Of a DNA stretch of 64,000 nucleotides, positions 2,677 through 61,511 are shown piece after piece. Made by a program: the position numbers and the translations under genes. The stretch comes from Atlanticothrix silvestris CENA357 (GTDB lineage: Bacteria; Cyanobacteriota; Cyanobacteriia; Cyanobacteriales; Nostocaceae), in contig NZ_JAECZB010000007.1 in NCBI RefSeq assembly GCF_016056295.1, positions 1-64,000 of the forward strand, written 5' to 3'. Below the pieces are notes generated by a model. It saw only the letters and a program-made list of their open reading frames with translations, was not told the origin of the DNA and did not search any database. How positions within the stretch are numbered: the first letter of the stretch is position 1; each line of letters begins with the position of its first letter.

Positions 2677-3692
2677 TAACTCTGATCTAAAGTATCTGCC
2701 ATAAATATAGTTAACCCTGTCTGTGCAGCTCTTTGGGCGGCATCAGCAACCTTTAGGGTATACAAACTCTCTTCTGGGGTTACATATAAAGGCGCGCCAT
2801 CAAAAAGATGATCTAGTACCATACTCGTATCTTTAGCAAATAAACCCCGACGAGTACTAACTTCTATCGGTGTTGTCTCTCCTGGCTGGATAAAATATCC
2901 TGTCTCACCATCAAAAATTAAACCACCCTTTTCGCCGTGAACTTCAAACTTCCGTTCTGATTGCCAAATCGTTTCACCTTTGCCATAGACTACTTGGGCT
3001 AAAAGTCCACTGGTAAAGCAAAGTTCACTAGTGCAGAAACAGGTTTGGTAATATTCTGGTTCTATTTCCCAGTATCGTTGGTGACAGTTAACAGTAAATA
3101 CTTTACCAAACAAATCGTTAAGACGATGCAATCGAGAAATAGCACCAATCAAGGGAAAACCAAAAAGCTCATGGTTATAAGTCCACTTCCGGGGTGCAGG
3201 ATTTTGGGGTTTGATGGTGCTGTAGCGGACATAAAATACATCGCCAATTTTGGCTAAGTGCTGCTTCAAGGCTTGATGTATACCACCTAAAAGTTCTATA
3301 TGTTCGACGTGTAGTAGTTTATTTTGGATTTTAGCTAAGGCAATCAGTTCTTCCGCTTCCTTGACATCAAAAGACAAGGGATATTCTACAACTACGTGCT
3401 TTCCTTGAGAGAGGGCTGCATGAGCGATCGCTCCATGATCACGATTAATTGTGGATATCACTACCAAATCTAAATCTTCGCGTTCCACTAGCTGTTGCCA
3501 AGAACTCAATACTTCGGTTTGGTATTCTTTGGCAAAGGCTGTTGTTTTTTCTAATGTATGACCAGCAATTGCAACCAGATGCGATCGCTCGTCATGCAGC
3601 AACGCCTCTGCTCGTAGTTTTGCTGCATATCCAGTTCCAATCAAGCCTACCCGCACTGTTGCTTTTTCCCAAGCTGCTTCTGAATTATACAT
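2676..3692 (-). CDS. bvdR: Biliverdin reductase (Gfo/Idh/MocA fold)
   Basis: NAD(P)H-dependent reductase converting biliverdin IXalpha to bilirubin; in cyanobacteria the gene has been linked to phycobilisome function. The 338-residue protein begins with the Rossmann motif VRVGLIGTGYAA. Several stretches agree with the cyanobacterial BvdR pattern as I remember it from Synechocystis: ISTINRDHGAIAHAAL, GKHVVVEYPLSF, LLHVEHIELLGGIHQA and NPAPRKWTYNHE. It differs clearly from the generic Gfo/Idh protein at 30566-31603. It is first in a coupled bvdR-map pair. Assignment is from remembered homologues, so a plain Gfo/Idh oxidoreductase is the fallback. Confidence 0.82.
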   Translation of the reverse strand: MYNSEAAWEKATVRVGLIGTGYAAKLRAEALLHDERSHLVAIAGHTLEKTTAFAKEYQTEVLSSWQQLVEREDLDLVVISTINRDHGAIAHAALSQGKHVVVEYPLSFDVKEAEELIALAKIQNKLLHVEHIELLGGIHQALKQHLAKIGDVFYVRYSTIKPQNPAPRKWTYNHELFGFPLIGAISRLHRLNDLFGKVFTVNCHQRYWEIEPEYYQTCFCTSELCFTSGLLAQVVYGKGETIWQSERKFEVHGEKGGLIFDGETGYFIQPGETTPIEVSTRRGLFAKDTSMVLDHLFDGAPLYVTPEESLYTLKVADAAQRAAQTGLTIFMADTLDQS

Positions 3693-3998
3693 GATCTTAC
3701 AGTTGTGTTTTTGACAATGTGATCTCTAAAAAATTCACATTGTTTTGTCAACATTTTGTCTATATATAGTTTTTTCTCATAACAGGACTCTTAGTCCGTT
3801 AAACACATAAAAGAAACTTATGATTATCTAGTAACTAAATTTCATTACTAATCGCGGTCGATTTCCAGTTACATCGTTTAATTTTTCTCGTAGTATCAGA
3901 ATTGAAGTGAATTTGAACCGACGGCTTACATAAGAGCAGCCGTAGGCTTTGCTTTGAGATAACTTAATACTGCCGTTTGCAAAAGAGAGGATTACTAA
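3693..3998. promoter_or_regulatory. Divergent intergenic region between bvdR and petF
   Basis: About 305 bases hold the promoters of bvdR (leftward) and petF (rightward). A perfect 9-bp inverted repeat, ACAATGTGA at 3714-3722 and TCACATTGT at 3735-3743, lies 20-50 bases upstream of the bvdR start and could be an operator or a hairpin. The petF start is preceded by AGAGGA, a good ribosome binding site. No clear NtcA-type GTA-N8-TAC site was seen. Confidence 0.45.
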
Positions 3999-4295
<297 letters not shown>

Positions 4296-4437
4296 GAGTC
4301 AGGCTTTTCAGGTCTAAACTTCTTACAAGAGTGACTAATGTTGTAGAAATGGAAATAGCACGTCTAGAGGAAAACTCCTCTTTGCTATATGTGCTTTTTC
4401 AGTCTGCTTTGGCAAAAAGTCTGAATTTAACGCCAAA

Positions 4438-4470
4438 CAGGAACACTAACATCTAGTGTTCCTGCTTTGT
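4438..4470 (+). terminator. Hairpin terminator after petF
   Basis: A perfect 10-bp stem (CAGGAACACT at 4438-4447, AGTGTTCCTG at 4455-4464) with a 7-base loop is followed by a T-rich tail. It lies between the convergent petF and SpoIID-domain genes and could stop transcription from both sides. Confidence 0.75.
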
Positions 4471-4480
4471 TGTTAAATGT

Positions 4481-6067
4481 TCATAACATCTCGTTGCTAA
4501 GAAGTTTAATTTGAGTGCCAGGATAATAAAACTGAAGAATTTTGGGGCTTGACCAACCTAGATTAGCTAAATTTTGAGCGCCGGTTTGACTCAAGCCGAC
4601 TCCATGTCCTAATCCACCACCAATAAAAGCAAATCCCCATAGATTAGGTTTACCTTTATTTAAAGGTTCTATGTAAAAAAGTGTACTAACAGGGGCTGTA
4701 AAGGCACTACGCACTTCGTCTTTATGTAGAGTAAAAGTGCCAATATCAGTTTTCACCGCAAGTTCGAGAATGCGTCCACTTTGACTGCGCTTGACTATAG
4801 CCATCGCTTCAACATTTTTAAATTTGGCATAGGGACTATTTTTGACTCGCAAAAATTTCTGCAAAACTTTGGTGATATCTTCTAGGCTAGTTTCTTTTTG
4901 CCAACGGAACATGTCCCATTTGCTTTCATTAAACCCTTGCTGCATTGTAATAAACTTCTGAAAATTCTTTTCATTTGCTAGATTTTGCTTAGACAAATTC
5001 CAAAGATTAGTAGGAGCATCAACTACTGGGCGCAAATAAGGACGATCTTCACCATTCCAGATATCACTGAAAGACGCGGTAACACCACCAGTGGTAGAAG
5101 AATACAGCGCATCTACTAGCTGGTTGTTGTATGTTAATACCATACTTCTAGTTGCCGCGATCGCCTTGTCTGTTTTAGCAACTGTTCCATTCAGCCCATA
5201 ATAAACTTGGCAGTGAGTGTCAGCACATAATTGATAGTCATCTATGGCAAATCTGCGCAAATTCCTCAAAGCATAAGTTCTCGCCAGAATTGCTTGAGCT
5301 TCTACTGCTGCTACTGGCGCATTTGGGCCAATTTCATGAGGTACAACCCCGCGCAAATAAGTTTCTAACGGTACTTGATTAACTAAAGTGTAAGTACCGT
5401 AGGCATTTGGCTGTAAATTTAGTTGTCCTGCGTAAAGACGAGCATTTTCTGGCTTGTCGCTTTTATTTACCCGAATCAAGTTTTTATCGGTGCTAATTTC
5501 TAGAGAATTTAGGTTGTAACGTTTATCGTTCACCACCCAATTTATTCGTGGCACTTGTTGCAGTATTTTGGTATCAATATATGCCGTATTTTTCTCTATA
5601 GCTTGTACGCTCTGGAATAATAAGCGTCGCAGTAAAGGAGTATTGTATACATCTCGCTTTGCCCAAACTTGCCAGCGTTCTGGTTGGGCTATTTCCACTT
5701 CTATTCCCTGTGCGCGCCATTTATTAGCACTGTCTTCAGCTGTTTCAAAGGTACGGTAAATACCTAAAACGACTACTTCCTCAACAGCAGGTTGCGGTAA
5801 AGCTTGCATTACCGTTTCTAGCTTGACGGGGTTTGCAGTAACTAAAGTCTGTTGTTTGTTGCCTAATTTGAATTTTAGCCTGAGGCGATCGCCCTTAGTG
5901 GGTTCTAGTTGTAACTTGGCTGTGGGTTTCTCTCCAAACCGCTGCACAATTCCAATTTTCAGTTCCACATCCTTGAGATTGTTCTCAGGCCCAGATGCTG
6001 CCGTCAGTCCCAACAAGCAAAATGTCGTCACTACAGTGTAAGAAAAACGCCATAACGAAAATCTCAT
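4481..6067 (-). CDS. SpoIID/LytB domain protein, secreted
   Basis: Probable cell-wall protein of the SpoIID/LytB family. In sporulating bacteria SpoIID is a lytic transglycosylase acting on denuded glycan; the cyanobacterial members are poorly studied. From the chosen ATG at 6067 the protein has 528 residues: a hydrophobic signal segment (about 6-27), a region with a SPOR-like stretch (GIYRTFETAEDSANKWRAQG), then the SpoIID domain with VPLETYLRGVVPHEIGP, EAQAILARTYAL and STTGGVTASFSDIW, and a C-terminal GGGLGHGVGLSQTGA block. The frame stays open to 6202, but only the 6067 start puts the signal segment at the N-terminus. It is divergent from srx. Confidence 0.85.
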   Translation of the reverse strand: MRFSLWRFSYTVVTTFCLLGLTAASGPENNLKDVELKIGIVQRFGEKPTAKLQLEPTKGDRLRLKFKLGNKQQTLVTANPVKLETVMQALPQPAVEEVVVLGIYRTFETAEDSANKWRAQGIEVEIAQPERWQVWAKRDVYNTPLLRRLLFQSVQAIEKNTAYIDTKILQQVPRINWVVNDKRYNLNSLEISTDKNLIRVNKSDKPENARLYAGQLNLQPNAYGTYTLVNQVPLETYLRGVVPHEIGPNAPVAAVEAQAILARTYALRNLRRFAIDDYQLCADTHCQVYYGLNGTVAKTDKAIAATRSMVLTYNNQLVDALYSSTTGGVTASFSDIWNGEDRPYLRPVVDAPTNLWNLSKQNLANEKNFQKFITMQQGFNESKWDMFRWQKETSLEDITKVLQKFLRVKNSPYAKFKNVEAMAIVKRSQSGRILELAVKTDIGTFTLHKDEVRSAFTAPVSTLFYIEPLNKGKPNLWGFAFIGGGLGHGVGLSQTGAQNLANLGWSSPKILQFYYPGTQIKLLSNEML

Positions 6068-6257
6068 GACCTGATTTCGCCCCTGAATGCGGCGGTGGGG
6101 CGGATTTTCCAGTTGCTTTGTAGCGTAGTGGTTTTGTCGCATGAACGCTCCAATGATACCATTACCAGTTTTGCTCCTAAAAAAGTTGCAAAACGAAGTC
6201 ATAATGACTATGATTTATTTAGAGATACAAAACAGAACTAGTTGGGTCAACTCTATT

Positions 6258-6521
6258 ATGGTTAGAGTCCAAGAAATTCCATTAAATCAAATTAAACGCC
6301 CGTTGCCCCGTGCAAACGATCCAAATAAGGTAGAAGACCTCATGGAATCAATTGCAGCGATTGGACAGCAAGAACCCATTGATGTCCTAGAAGTAGATGG
6401 ACAATATTATGGCTTTTCTGGTTGCCATCGGTATGAAGCTTGCCAGCGTTTAGGCAAAGAAACCATTTTAGCCAGAGTCCGCAAAGCTAATCGTAGCGTT
6501 TTGAAAATGCACTTAGCGTAA
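6258..6521 (+). CDS. srx: Sulfiredoxin
   Basis: ATP-dependent reductase that repairs hyperoxidised (sulfinic acid) 2-Cys peroxiredoxin. The signature FSGCHR holds the catalytic Cys (Cys56 from the chosen start) and the ParB/Srx-like fold is clear (NDPNKVEDLMESI, GQQEPIDVLEVDG). The frame is open from 6141, but starting at 6258 (MVRVQEIPL) gives 87 residues, the usual cyanobacterial length. The upstream part has no family resemblance and overlaps the divergent promoter region. It is followed after 65 bases by dps in the same direction, which makes a peroxide-defence pair. Confidence 0.9.
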   Translation: MVRVQEIPLNQIKRPLPRANDPNKVEDLMESIAAIGQQEPIDVLEVDGQYYGFSGCHRYEACQRLGKETILARVRKANRSVLKMHLA

Positions 6522-6586
6522 GCTAATGATCATTGAAAAAAAAAGAAACAACTGACTACTAACATACAACCCATTAGGAGAAAATT

Positions 6587-7078
6587 ATGTCATCTCAAGC
6601 AACAGTCAAAAATGTAAATATTGGTATAGATGAAGCAAGCAGAGCTAAAATTGCCGAGGGGCTATCTCGCCTGTTAGCTGACACTTACACACTGTATCTA
6701 AAAACTCATAACTTTCATTGGAACGTTACAGGGCCAATGTTCCAAACACTGCACCTGATGTTTGAGACCCAGTATACAGAACTAGCCTTAGCAGTTGATT
6801 TGATTGCCGAGAGGATTAGAGCGCTTGGTTATCCCGCACCGGGAACCTACAGCGAATATGCCAAGCTGAGTTCGATTCCAGAAACACCTGGAGTTCCTAA
6901 AGCTAAAGAAATGATCAGCTTACTAGTAGAAGGGCAAGAAGCCGTAGTGCGAACTGCACGGTCTATTTTTCCTGTAGTCGAAGAAGTGAACGACGAACCC
7001 ACAGCTGATTTATTAACTCAGCGGATGCAAGTCCACGAAAAAACTGCTTGGATGTTGAGAAGTTTACTGGAAGAATAA
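6587..7078 (+). CDS. dps: Dps-family ferritin-like protein
   Basis: Dodecameric ferritin-like protein that oxidises Fe(II) with hydrogen peroxide, stores iron and protects DNA. The 163-residue sequence has the Dps ferroxidase signature HNFHWNV (His44) followed by a Glu/Asp-rich helix ([18 protein letters not shown]), and ends with [15 protein letters not shown]. The N-terminal tail is short with few Lys/Arg, so DNA binding through the tail is doubtful. A good ribosome binding site (TTAGGAGAAA) precedes the ATG. Pairing with srx suggests shared induction by peroxide or high light. Confidence 0.93.
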
Positions 7079-7080
7079 GA

Positions 7081-7197
7081 GGCAGGGGGCAGGGAGCTGG
7101 GGAGCAAGGGGGAATTGACAGTAACCTCTCGTTGCCCGTTTGCACTTCTGCCTCTTCATCCCCCTCTGCACCCTGCCCCAATTCTTCTTAATTGCCC
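7081..7197. repeat. G-rich/C-rich dispersed repeat, copy 1
   Basis: The left half is G-rich (AGGGGGCAGGGAG type) and the right half C-rich, giving a large imperfect hairpin. Its core at 7104-7128 recurs in inverted orientation at 35671-35695 with one mismatch in 25. Both copies sit directly upstream of a coding start. Confidence 0.65.
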
Positions 7198-7198
7198 C

Positions 7199-7855
7199 AT
7201 GCCCAATTCTGATTTGACCAAGAAGTTGCAAATTTTAATGCAACGCGTGGATATTTCTAGTTTTAAAGCTCTGAGTCGCGCTGCTGGTGTCTCAGAGCAT
7301 CAAATTTTGCAATTGCGGCGGGGAAAGCTAGAGCAGATGCGGGTAGATATACTGCTCAAACTGTCGTCAGTTTTAAAAGTGCCATTGAGTGAGTTGATAG
7401 CAACTTTTTCAACTGTAAATTTGGTAGAAGAGAAAATAGCACCAAATCAAGAATTATTACAAGAGATTGCAGACTTAAAAATAGAGTACCAGCGATCGCA
7501 ACTGGCGCTAGAACAACAGCGAGAGTTATTGCAGCAACAATTTCAGCATTCAAGTTTGCAACTCCTAGAATCTTTATTATTGCAATGGCCGACAGCAGCC
7601 CAGAAAGCACAAGAAAATCCGCAGTTAGCAGCGGTCAAAATATTGCCATTGGTGCAAAAACCCCTAGAAAGACTCTTGCAGACTTGGGGAGTGGAAGCGA
7701 TCGCACCCGTGGGAGTAGAGCTGCCTTATGATCCGCAATTGCATCAATTGATAGAAGGTACTGCACAACCCGGTGAATTAGTCAAGGTGCGATACATTGG
7801 CTACCTTCAAGGTGAAAAATTACTTTATCGAGCCAAAGTCAGTCCTGTAACATAG
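7199..7855 (+). CDS. HTH protein with GrpE-like C-terminal domain
   Basis: From the ATG at 7199 (MPNSDLTKKL) the protein has 218 residues. Residues about 20-62 look like an XRE-type helix-turn-helix (FKALSRAAGVSEHQILQLRRG). Residues about 75-125 are a Gln/Glu-rich coiled coil. The C-terminus (GVELPYDPQLHQLIEG, VKVRYIGYLQGEKLLYRAKV) resembles the beta domain of the nucleotide exchange factor GrpE, where FDP-x2-H and GY-x-L-x4-LRPAxV are typical. It may be a DNA-binding or DnaK-linked regulator; the cellular role is not known to me. The frame is open to 7115, but that part reads through a dispersed repeat. Assignment to GrpE is by pattern and remains tentative. Confidence 0.65.
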   Translation: MPNSDLTKKLQILMQRVDISSFKALSRAAGVSEHQILQLRRGKLEQMRVDILLKLSSVLKVPLSELIATFSTVNLVEEKIAPNQELLQEIADLKIEYQRSQLALEQQRELLQQQFQHSSLQLLESLLLQWPTAAQKAQENPQLAAVKILPLVQKPLERLLQTWGVEAIAPVGVELPYDPQLHQLIEGTAQPGELVKVRYIGYLQGEKLLYRAKVSPVT

Positions 7856-8041
7856 TCCCCTACTTGAAGGTCTTATCAGACGCAATAAATCGTGCCTCTG
7901 TATGAGTCTCCAAGGAAGGCGCATGTTAAATCTGTACCACAATCTGATTTAATCGTTCAAACAAAAATTGGCTCTCAAATCCAACTCTGAGCCGAGGAAG
8001 TAACATGATTAAAGAGGAGAAATTATGGAAGCGAACAGACC

Positions 8042-8290
8042 ATGATTACTAAAGAAGAAATTACCATCAAAGTGCCGTCTGAAGTAGCACAAGCATACCG
8101 CAATGCCACTGAAGACGAACGAGAACAATTGCAACTTAAGATTGCGGCAATTATGCACTCTCAATTTACAACTCCGAGACTTGAGTCCATCGCACGCCTG
8201 AGAAGGACGATGGATAAAGCAAGTCTTGAAGCACAAGAGCGAGGTTTAACGCCTGCAATCTTAGAATCGATTTTGAATGATGATGAATAA
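8042..8290 (+). CDS. Putative antitoxin of a PIN toxin-antitoxin pair
   Basis: An 82-residue protein (start MITKEEITIKVPSEVAQAYR) with a short beta strand followed by charged helices, which fits a ribbon-helix-helix or coiled antitoxin. It overlaps the start of the PIN-domain gene by 14 bases, the usual arrangement of antitoxin before toxin. No family name can be given with certainty. It should bind and inhibit the downstream nuclease and may repress its own promoter in the 186-base gap upstream. Confidence 0.7.
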   Translation: MITKEEITIKVPSEVAQAYRNATEDEREQLQLKIAAIMHSQFTTPRLESIARLRRTMDKASLEAQERGLTPAILESILNDDE

Positions 8291-8693
8291 TCGACGGTTC
8301 GTATTTGATACAAATGTGCTGATTAGTGCTTTTTTGTTTAGTCAAAGCAAGCCACGTCAGGCATTAGATAAAGCTCAGGATATTGGCGTTATCGTATTAT
8401 CAAATAATGTCTTATCGGAGTTAGAAGAGGTTTTATACCGTCCCAAATTTGATAAATATCTTACCAAAGAAAGGCGGCAAGAATTTCTGGAATATTTAAC
8501 AGAAAACGCTCAATTTATTGACGTGACTGAAAAGATTAATGAATGTCGAGATCCCAAAGATAACAAATATCTGGAATTAGCAGTCAGTGGAAAAGCAGAA
8601 TGTATTGTGACCGGAGATGATGATCTGCTAGTGCTAAAACCCTGGAGAGGTATTGAGATTTTGACTGTTCAAGAATTTTTGGCAAAGAACTAG
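8277..8693 (+). CDS. PIN-domain toxin (COG1569-like)
   Basis: Probable toxin endoribonuclease of 138 residues. The four acidic residues of a PIN active site are recognisable: Asp in FVFDTNVL, Glu in NVLSELEEVL, Asp in ECRDPKDNKYLELA and Asp in CIVTGDDDLL. This matches the putative toxin-antitoxin PIN family (COG1569) better than classical VapC. The frame starts with three ATG codons (MMMNNRRFVF), so the exact start is uncertain by up to two codons. It is translationally coupled to the upstream antitoxin gene. Confidence 0.85.
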   Translation: MMMNNRRFVFDTNVLISAFLFSQSKPRQALDKAQDIGVIVLSNNVLSELEEVLYRPKFDKYLTKERRQEFLEYLTENAQFIDVTEKINECRDPKDNKYLELAVSGKAECIVTGDDDLLVLKPWRGIEILTVQEFLAKN

Positions 8694-58329: not shown

Positions 58330-59406
58330 TTAACGAACTGTCTCTCGTATAGATTCAGTATCAATGGGTTTGATCAGGTACAGCCTTAACATGTGCCAAA
58401 CGATTGCCAAAGACGGAGGAATTTTTTGGAGGAATTTTGTGATCTTTGAGCGTTTGCTATTACTAATTGCTGCTAGTTTCAGATTATTTTCGGAACACTG
58501 CTCTAACCGCCAGAAAAATTCCGGGTGATTTGTGTTTAAGATCAAGGGAAACGCTCGTGCGGAAGTGTTATTGGTCTCCTGAATTACCTTATTATTGTAT
58601 TTACGTGGATGTATACCAATGGATTCATAGAATGTTACTCGTTCAAATACCGTGATTGTATGTGTAGCAAATACAGCCAATAGAAAGAAACGTATCCACA
58701 AACGCGCTGTCCAATTGTTCCATAATTGGGGTTGCGATCGCAGCAGCGCTTTGAAAAAATCTCCGTGTCGATTCTCATCCTGACACCAACTCTCAAATTT
58801 GCGAAATAGTGGGTAAAATTGGTATTCCGGATTTGCCTGTATATGACGATGCACTAATATATAACGCCAATAACCAATTTTCTCCGATAAGTAGACTGTG
58901 TAAATAATCCACTCTGGGGGGAAAAATGTATATGTGCGATGTTTCGTTAAATAACTTAAGTCTAGGGAGAGATTCAAATCTGCCATTGATTTATTCAAAA
59001 ATCCCGCATGGCGTGCTTCATCCCGTGCCATGAAATTGAAGGCATCTGCTAAGAGAGGATTTTTATCTTTTAGTCGGCGAGATAATTCTTTAAACAAAAG
59101 AAACCCAGAAAATTCCGAGGTACAAGAACGTTCTAAAAAGTCAATAAAAGCACGCCGCTTTTCACCAGTAATGTGATCCCAAGATTGCTTAAACTCTTCA
59201 TCGCGCACGAAATGATGCCGATTATAATCGGCACGTAGTTCTTCAACAATTGCCCGCAACTCAGTCTCATTTGCAGAAATATCTAAATTCGCCACTGCTT
59301 CAAAATCAGTGGTATAAAACCGTGGTGTTAACAGGGTTTCCTGAACAGGTGCTTTAATACCTGGCTTTAGCAATTGCGGCTCTGGGGTTTCGAGAGACTT
59401 AATCAT
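58330..59406 (-). CDS. chlAII: Mg-protoporphyrin IX monomethyl ester oxidative cyclase, low-oxygen isoform
   Basis: Di-iron enzyme that forms the fifth ring of chlorophyll, aerobic AcsF/ChlA type, 358 residues. Iron ligands are visible in SEFSGFLLFKEL, DEARHAGF and DENRHGDFF. Cyanobacteria have two isoforms; the one next to ho2 and hemN (ChlAII) is induced and needed at low oxygen. Here it faces away from the ho2 stub and hemN across a 370-base gap, so the assignment as isoform II rests on neighbourhood. Confidence 0.9.
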   Translation of the reverse strand: MIKSLETPEPQLLKPGIKAPVQETLLTPRFYTTDFEAVANLDISANETELRAIVEELRADYNRHHFVRDEEFKQSWDHITGEKRRAFIDFLERSCTSEFSGFLLFKELSRRLKDKNPLLADAFNFMARDEARHAGFLNKSMADLNLSLDLSYLTKHRTYTFFPPEWIIYTVYLSEKIGYWRYILVHRHIQANPEYQFYPLFRKFESWCQDENRHGDFFKALLRSQPQLWNNWTARLWIRFFLLAVFATHTITVFERVTFYESIGIHPRKYNNKVIQETNNTSARAFPLILNTNHPEFFWRLEQCSENNLKLAAISNSKRSKITKFLQKIPPSLAIVWHMLRLYLIKPIDTESIRETVR

Positions 59407-59776
59407 GAACTCAATTACATCGCTTTATGTCTATAAAAGCATGAATTGCTTACTAAATACATCAGTTAAATTATCGAAAAGGAAATAAGAATAAATAACC
59501 TAATAATCTAGGTTTGCAGCCTTTAATCCCTACCTAAACAATATAAAGAAATATTAATAGCTTTATAGTGATGCAGATATTGGTAGTTAAATAATTTTGT
59601 GAGAGAAAAACAAAAATGATTGGGATCTGTATAGGCAGTGTTACTTGCTGGATAGAATGATGCAGATCCTTTCTAAACCTAGAATAACAATCCTTTAACT
59701 CTGGACTGTGGATTATCAGCCATATTGAGTCGGTGGCTGCCTTGAAACCTTGCGCTTGAACATGAAGGAAGCAAAA
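59407..59776. promoter_or_regulatory. Divergent control region of the low-oxygen tetrapyrrole genes
   Basis: The 370 bases between chlAII and the ho2 stub should hold both promoters. In Synechocystis a MarR-type activator (ChlR) induces the homologous genes when oxygen is low; no such gene is in this window and I could not locate its site with confidence. AAGGA eight bases before the ho2 ATG is a good ribosome binding site. Confidence 0.45.
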
Positions 59777-59965
59777 ATGAGTAGCGATTTAGCTGTCAAA
59801 CTGCGCTCTGGCACACAACAAGCTCACACAGCGGCAGAAAATGTGGGATTCATGAAATGTTTTCTTAAAGGAGTTGTGGATAGGGACTGTTTCGCCAAGT
59901 TTTTAGGCAATTTATCGAAATCGCTACAGCAAATTAATTTTCTACAAATTAGCCTGTTTGGTTGA
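59777..59965 (+). pseudogene. ho2: Truncated heme oxygenase (ho2) remnant
   Basis: The first 46 codons read as a heme oxygenase N-terminus: KLRSGTQQAHTAAENVGF with the proximal haem ligand His17, then FLKGVV and FLGNL. A normal enzyme has about 240 residues; here only SKSLQQINFLQISLFG follows before the stop, and no further oxygenase sequence occurs before hemN. The tail begins GNLSK, like GNLIK near the C-terminus of full-length enzymes, so an in-frame deletion between the two GNL segments is plausible. Ribosome binding site and start are intact. Without the distal helix no activity is expected. Heme oxygenase supply must come from a second gene elsewhere. Confidence 0.8.
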
Positions 59966-60128
59966 AATCAACACATCATGGATTGCTGCTGATCTTTAAA
60001 ATAAACAGCAGTAACCCTATTTTTGTTAATGCCTTAGTGGTTCAAAAATGATTTTTTAATCACAAAAGCACAAAGATGAAAGTATTTTTCTTGCTATTAC
60101 CTATACAACTAACTACTAAGAGGTTTTG

Positions 60129-61511
60129 ATGGTTTTTCTACTACCTAGTGTCAAATTTGATCTAAATATGATCAAAAAATATGATACTCCTGCACCCAGA
60201 TACACCAGTTACCCACCGGCTACAGAGTTAAAAGAAGGGTTTAGCGTCACTGATTTTCAAGCCGCGATCGCCGCCTCGAATCAAAGAAAATCTCCTCTAT
60301 CTTTATATTTCCATATCCCCTTTTGTCAGAGTGCCTGCTACTTCTGTGGCTGTAATACAGTAATTTCTAACAACAAGAGTATTGCTCAACCTTATGTAGA
60401 GTTCTTGGTTCAAGAAATCAAGAACATGGCAGCCTTGATTGATTCAGATAGAAAAGTACTGCAAATCCATTGGGGTGGTGGTACACCTAATTACTTGGAT
60501 CATGACCAAGTAGAATTTTTATGGAAGAACATTAATCGATACTTCAGTATTGATCCACAAGCAGAAATTTCAATTGAGATTAATCCTCGTTATGTCGATA
60601 AAAACTATATTTTCTTTCTGAGAGAAATTGGGTTTAACCGTATTAGTTTTGGTATCCAGGATTTTAACCGCGAAGTACAAGTAGCTGTGAATCGCGTACA
60701 ACCAGAAGAAATGCTGTTTGATGTCATGGATTGGATCAAAGCAGCTAAGTTTGAAAGTGTAAATGTAGATTTAATTTATGGTTTACCATATCAAAATTTC
60801 CAGACATTTCAGGAGACAGTGAAAAAGACAATTCAATTAGATCCTGACCGCATAGTTGTTTTTAACTTTGCTTATGTACCGTGGTTGAAGCCAGCACAAA
60901 AAAATATTCCTCAAGAAGCATTGCCGCAACCACAAGAAAAGTTAGAAATTCTCAAAATGACTATTGAGGAATTGACAAATAGTCAGTACGTATTCATTGG
61001 TATGGATCATTTTGCCAAACCTAACGATGAACTAGCGATCGCCCAACGTGATCGCACCCTCCAGCGCAACTTTCAGGGCTACACCACCCACGCAGGTACA
61101 GAACTTTTGGGGTTTGGTGTTTCATCCATTAGTATGTTAAATGAAGCTTATTTCCAAAATCACAAGCAGTTAAAAGATTATTACCAAGCGATCGCAGGAT
61201 CTACTTTACCTATTAGTAAAGGCATTAACTTGACACAAGATGACATGATCCGACGTGATGTTATCTTATGTATCATGTCTCACTTTCATCTGCGTAAGCA
61301 AGATATAGAAGAGAAATATCATATTAATTTTGATGATTACTTCGCTCAGGAGATAGAAGTACTGAAGCCATTAGCAGCCGATGGACTCGTCAGTGTCTCA
61401 AGTAACCATATCCAGATTACAGATATCGGTAGGCTACTAGTAAGAAATATTGCTGTCGTATTTGACACACATAATCAAGTCCGAGATAAACAATTTTCCC
61501 GTGCAATTTAA
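60129..61511 (+). CDS. hemN: Oxygen-independent coproporphyrinogen III oxidase
   Basis: Radical-SAM enzyme that turns coproporphyrinogen III into protoporphyrinogen IX without oxygen. It has 460 residues from the ATG at 60129, which has AGAGG upstream. The cluster motif is CQSACYFCGC (Cys-x3-Cys-x2-Cys), preceded by the N-terminal HemN segment PAPRYTSYPPATEL. HWGGGTPNYL, NRISFGIQDFN and the C-terminal HemN domain (GFGVSSISML) are present. It forms the low-oxygen set with the adjacent cyclase and the ho2 remnant. It appears intact although its upstream partner is broken. Confidence 0.95.
   Translation: MVFLLPSVKFDLNMIKKYDTPAPRYTSYPPATELKEGFSVTDFQAAIAASNQRKSPLSLYFHIPFCQSACYFCGCNTVISNNKSIAQPYVEFLVQEIKNMAALIDSDRKVLQIHWGGGTPNYLDHDQVEFLWKNINRYFSIDPQAEISIEINPRYVDKNYIFFLREIGFNRISFGIQDFNREVQVAVNRVQPEEMLFDVMDWIKAAKFESVNVDLIYGLPYQNFQTFQETVKKTIQLDPDRIVVFNFAYVPWLKPAQKNIPQEALPQPQEKLEILKMTIEELTNSQYVFIGMDHFAKPNDELAIAQRDRTLQRNFQGYTTHAGTELLGFGVSSISMLNEAYFQNHKQLKDYYQAIAGSTLPISKGINLTQDDMIRRDVILCIMSHFHLRKQDIEEKYHINFDDYFAQEIEVLKPLAADGLVSVSSNHIQITDIGRLLVRNIAVVFDTHNQVRDKQFSRAI

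Follow-up and report, generated by a model that had tools for sequence, protein, structure and literature searches.

Results

Organization of the ho2 locus

The two outer genes of the chlAII-ho2-hemN low-oxygen cluster, chlAII and hemN, were found adjacent and intact in the window (the whole stretch of 64,000 nucleotides that was analysed), and no intact ho2 lies between them at this locus. The features annotated at the locus are as follows:

58330..59406, minus strand: chlAII (acsF2), 358 aa, intact; TIGR02029 (AcsF), 502 bits
59537..59640, no strand assigned: putative divergent promoter block in the chlAII-ho2 interval, conserved, kept in the window and in most ho2-less loci
59765..59769, plus strand: Shine-Dalgarno sequence AAGGA of ho2, still present in the window
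59777..59914, plus strand: ho2 codons 1-46, intact; 45 of 46 residues as in the HO2 of Dendronalium (L034)
59912..59916, plus strand: deletion junction, placed to within 3 bp; the DNA to its right aligns with the final bases of ho2
59916..59937, plus strand: remnant of the 3' end of ho2 (C GAA ATC GCT ACA GCA AAT TAA), out of frame, with the old stop TAA at 59935-59937
59938..60011, plus strand: former 3' untranslated region of ho2, part of which is translated in the shifted frame, to TGA at 59963-59965
60129..61511, plus strand: hemN, 460 aa, intact; TIGR00538, 685 bits

The ho2 reading frame at 59777-59965 (MSSDLAVKLRSGTQQAHTAAENVGFMKCFLKGVVDRDCFAKFLGNLSKSLQQINFLQISLFG) begins with ATG, has 62 codons and ends with TGA. 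A 62-codon stub with its start, ribosome binding site and 46 N-terminal codons intact, lying between intact chlAII and hemN, had been reported in a preliminary description of this DNA, and our annotation agrees with it exactly, both flanking genes being full-length. A leader comparable to that of the window (AAGGAAGCAA/AAGGAAGTAA) precedes the intact ho2 of three relatives (L045, L062 and L069). Residues 4-51 of the stub match the Pfam family PF01126 (Heme_oxygenase; E 3.6e-12, 47 bits), although only over positions 2-49 of the 204 in the profile. Among solved structures, those closest to the stub are Synechocystis HO2 (1wov) and HO1 (1we1), each related to it over the first 46-47 residues only. 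The complete HO2 fold, including the conserved YTRYMGDLSGGQ segment, is not present in the stub, and HO1 alone carries YTRYMGDLSGGQ within the genome. The syntenic full-length ho2 of the relatives mostly comprises 225-240 codons, usually 238.

Ends of the deletion

Alignment with the intact ho2 of relatives at the DNA level located both ends of the deletion. On the left, likeness ends at 59913 in most relatives, and the right end falls in the last codons of ho2. The tail DNA at 59916-59937 (CGAAATCGCTACAGCAAATTAA) represents the final seven ho2 codons (tEIATAN-stop) in a 22-base match at 95%; the corresponding 3' end in Chlorogloeopsis (L088) reads ACC GAA ATC GCT ACA GCA AAC TAA. The approximately 75 bases after the old stop are 77-83% identical to the DNA following the ho2 stop in five relatives (L048, L049, L051, L052 and L053), with E-values down to 2.9e-13, and positions 59938-60011 are also about 89-91% identical to the genome G104. 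Since the tail DNA is the ho2 3' end and 3' untranslated region of the relatives, codon 46 now runs directly into the seven final codons, read in a different frame that passes the old stop at 59935-59937 and terminates at the TGA at 59963-59965.

The distance from the ATG to the old stop is 161 bases in the window against 717 in the gene of the relatives, giving a loss of about 556 bp, a length not divisible by three. The large loss described earlier is therefore real but slightly greater in size, amounting to about 185 codons' worth rather than about 175. At most 3 bp of microhomology bridge the junction, so that no repeat-driven event is required. With homologous DNA flanking the break on both sides and its frame destroyed, ho2 has the make-up of a deletion pseudogene.

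Heme oxygenases elsewhere in the genome

The Pfam heme oxygenase search covered the whole assembly, a draft of 6.53 Mb in 113 contigs that is 99.9% complete. The sole full heme oxygenase is HO1-like (G000:C53:181153-181761) and the only other match is the ho2 stub. The look for another ho gene that had been recommended for this genome thus returned one complete copy, and a second functional heme oxygenase elsewhere was rejected. The other AcsF copy, presumably chlAI, sits at C49.

Recurrent loss of ho2 among relatives

A sample of 80 chlAII loci was taken from GTDB species genomes, 73 of which have hemN within 6 kb. An apparently full-length ho2 was found between chlAII and hemN in 56 of these 73 loci, leaving 17 without an intact ho2. 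HO1 is the sole heme oxygenase in 13 of the 17 ho2-less genomes; one (L061) combines HO1 with a 3' ho2 remnant, and three have a second heme oxygenase elsewhere. On a quick maximum likelihood tree of chlAII and hemN DNA (73 rows, including the window), the losses resolve into 12 independent events with differing end points, the window being counted as one.

The remnants take several forms. The Nostocales cyanobacterium LEGE 11386 (L035/G010) retains a 5' stub of the first 83 bases of ho2, and Nostoc sp. CHAB 5824 has a 3' remnant consisting of bases 381-676. In Roholtiella, Komarekiella and Nostoc MG11 the gene is gone from the start codon on and hemN lies directly behind the ho2 leader, while mere pieces of ho2 were found beside hemN in three further genomes, all from the Nostoc-like genus g7 (G174, G149 and G168). 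The region at about -250 to -150 in ho2 upstream coordinates matches in nearly all of the loci that have lost ho2; its conservation is the observation that bears on a possible induction of the cluster by ChlR at low oxygen.

Two further observations concern the sequences at these loci. In L065, L066 and L074, hemN begins right after the former ho2 leader and Shine-Dalgarno sequence; the ho2 and hemN leaders have a similar stretch in common (GGAAGCAAC / GGAAAGCAACTCA), which is likely to be a recombination site. Tandem repeat arrays accompany the broken ho2 in G149, where the array lies between two fragments (L210 608-1908), and in G174, where it lies just upstream of the remnant (L209 1441-2405), which suggests that tandem repeats invade or expand in a dying ho2.

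Across the family, 32 of the 217 genomes having any heme oxygenase hit contain a single heme oxygenase. Loss confined to ho2 was rejected as a general rule, as chlAII decays instead in at least 12 Nostocaceae genomes, being missing or in pieces where the neighbouring ho2 and hemN are intact. In L218-L229, chlAII is absent or fragmentary about 300-700 bp upstream of ho2, and several of these genomes carry another acsF copy elsewhere. With ho2 and chlAII each lost in different relatives, the cluster decays gene by gene. A match to the hemN region was found in 214 of 218 genomes, a count in which paralogues are not told apart, and hemN is seemingly the most lasting gene of the cluster.

These losses bear on whether the break could be an assembly artefact, an intact ho2 having been collapsed through low coverage or a repeat. 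The assembly is in draft form, with 113 contigs, and the break is known from the assembly of a single strain; however, the junction lies inside a contig, its two sides have at most 3 bp in common, which is insufficient to mislead an assembler, and ho2 has also been lost in many relatives with remnants left behind. We consider an artefact very improbable.

Age of the deletion

The nearest intact ho2 is that of Dendronalium phyllosphericum (L034), and compared with it the 46 codons of the stub carry 12 synonymous differences and a single non-synonymous one (dS 0.59, dN 0.009). No private base was found in the stub among the 82 distinct intact HO2-like genes compared. Both observations indicate that selection acted on ho2 until recently.

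G104, the closest genome found, belongs to another genus (91.6% DNA identity in HO1 and 90.6% in hemN), with dS of 0.41-0.43 to the window genome in hemN and HO1. A stub evolving neutrally since the split from G104 would be expected to show about 22 non-synonymous changes (109 sites x about 0.2), whereas at most one was observed. Judging from these substitution counts, the deletion in the window is most likely young and postdates the split. In G104 itself, ho2 and most of chlAII are gone from the corresponding locus and there is no stub; the likelier reading of this comparison is that G104 lost ho2 separately. The site of the G104 deletion (L135 1727-1780) is filled by about 50 bp that are unmatched in the window locus and are AAGTATGAAGTG/AAGGATGAA-like. 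G104 also has a second low-oxygen cluster (L230, G104:C1:6519000-6530500; 3569-8529) with acsF (68% identical), hemF, a heme oxygenase, hemN and a desaturase. Its heme oxygenase contains an internal TAA and only the C-terminal third of its hemN is left, so this copy is decaying too.

The right end of the G104 deletion lies within a few bases of that in the window, with the common boundary TATCGAAATCG. A deletion shared with G104 was suspected from this boundary and from the 89-91% identity of the tail, but is less likely as the stub has not drifted despite a dS of about 0.4. The near-identical boundary may be due to chance or to inherited sequence at the old C-terminus. Two independent right ends that nearly coincide are a mild coincidence (roughly one in a hundred) that counts against the pseudogene account, and this partly unexplained boundary is the one loose end.

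The same boundary enters into a different explanation, in which the stub is an old short reading frame or a leader (such as a leader peptide or leader RNA for hemN) that descends from the common ancestor with G104 and is kept by selection, resulting in few non-synonymous changes. The very low dN of the stub, the right boundary TATCGAA common to G104 and the intact leader and Shine-Dalgarno sequence would all agree with this. On the other hand, G104 has no stub, the 5' stub in L035/G010 is a different one and the other relatives have none, while the low dN is just as well accounted for by a recent deletion. A retained short frame or leader is, like an assembly artefact, very improbable.

Discussion

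The reading that we favour, at a probability of about 0.93, is that ho2 of the window strain is a recent deletion pseudogene produced by a single illegitimate deletion that removed about 556 bp, leaving HO1 as the only heme oxygenase. The deletion would have occurred without a repeat, or through microhomology of at most 3 bp, fusing codon 46 out of frame to the seven codons at the end of the gene. About three quarters of the fold is missing from the 62-aa product, and hence the gene could presumably no longer give a functional HO2. The promoter region, chlAII and hemN are retained, with HO1 remaining as the sole heme oxygenase.

The preliminary description had explained the stub by recombination between two similar GNL-coding stretches, the tail GNLSK resembling and keeping in frame the C-terminal GNLIK segment, and this can be dismissed, as the tail DNA consists of the 22 terminal bases of ho2 followed by the 3' untranslated region, read in another frame. 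The GNL of the stub is codons 44-46 (GNLYYIY in the relatives), and a right end at GNLIK should be followed by about 20 codons (KAIGQVLFNSLTRS...) that are absent, the real right end lying about seven codons before the stop.

HO2 activity would be lost in the window strain, with HO1 covering the low-oxygen bilin supply, and the loss is probably near-neutral. That only low-oxygen bilin supply would be affected, as was proposed earlier, is plausible but probably overstated, since growth of a Synechocystis ho2 mutant is good at low oxygen as well as in air (PMC4500134). The ho1 mutant of the same organism grows at low oxygen only, and HO2 has been termed accessory, with many cyanobacteria listed that are without ho2 (PMC4500134). 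The window case is therefore a fairly ordinary instance of a gene for an accessory enzyme being lost repeatedly, a known kind of gene decay. A wider and rather doubtful possibility is that heterocyst-forming cyanobacteria have repeatedly deleted ho2 while sparing the divergent low-oxygen promoter and moving hemN nearer to it, with HO1 serving at low oxygen, in which case the conserved function of the cluster would be coproporphyrinogen oxidation and not bilin supply. These are natural HO1-only strains that retain the other low-oxygen tetrapyrrole genes of the cluster and have close relatives still bearing HO2; such pairs of strains could be used to test for any role of HO2 at low oxygen or in heterocysts.

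The locus resembles the chlAII-ho2 (sll1875)-hemN cluster of Synechocystis sp. PCC 6803 in having the same three genes adjacent, and the stub matches residues 3-46 of its HO2 (1wov). It differs from it in that chlAII is divergent from ho2-hemN in the window and ho2 breaks off after codon 46. In other Nostocaceae (LEGE 11386/G010, CHAB 5824, Nodularia, Komarekiella, G174 and G149), ho2 is likewise missing or disrupted and the hemN next to it intact, with the upstream region mostly kept, although the end points of these reduced loci differ from those in the window. The loss of ho2 is also shared with the terrestrial Leptolyngbya sp. NIES-2104, in which low-oxygen tetrapyrrole genes including ho2 have been lost, which the authors suggest reflects adaptation to habitats that are more oxic; in that strain the entire set has gone, whereas in the window strain only ho2 is affected (PMC4675709).
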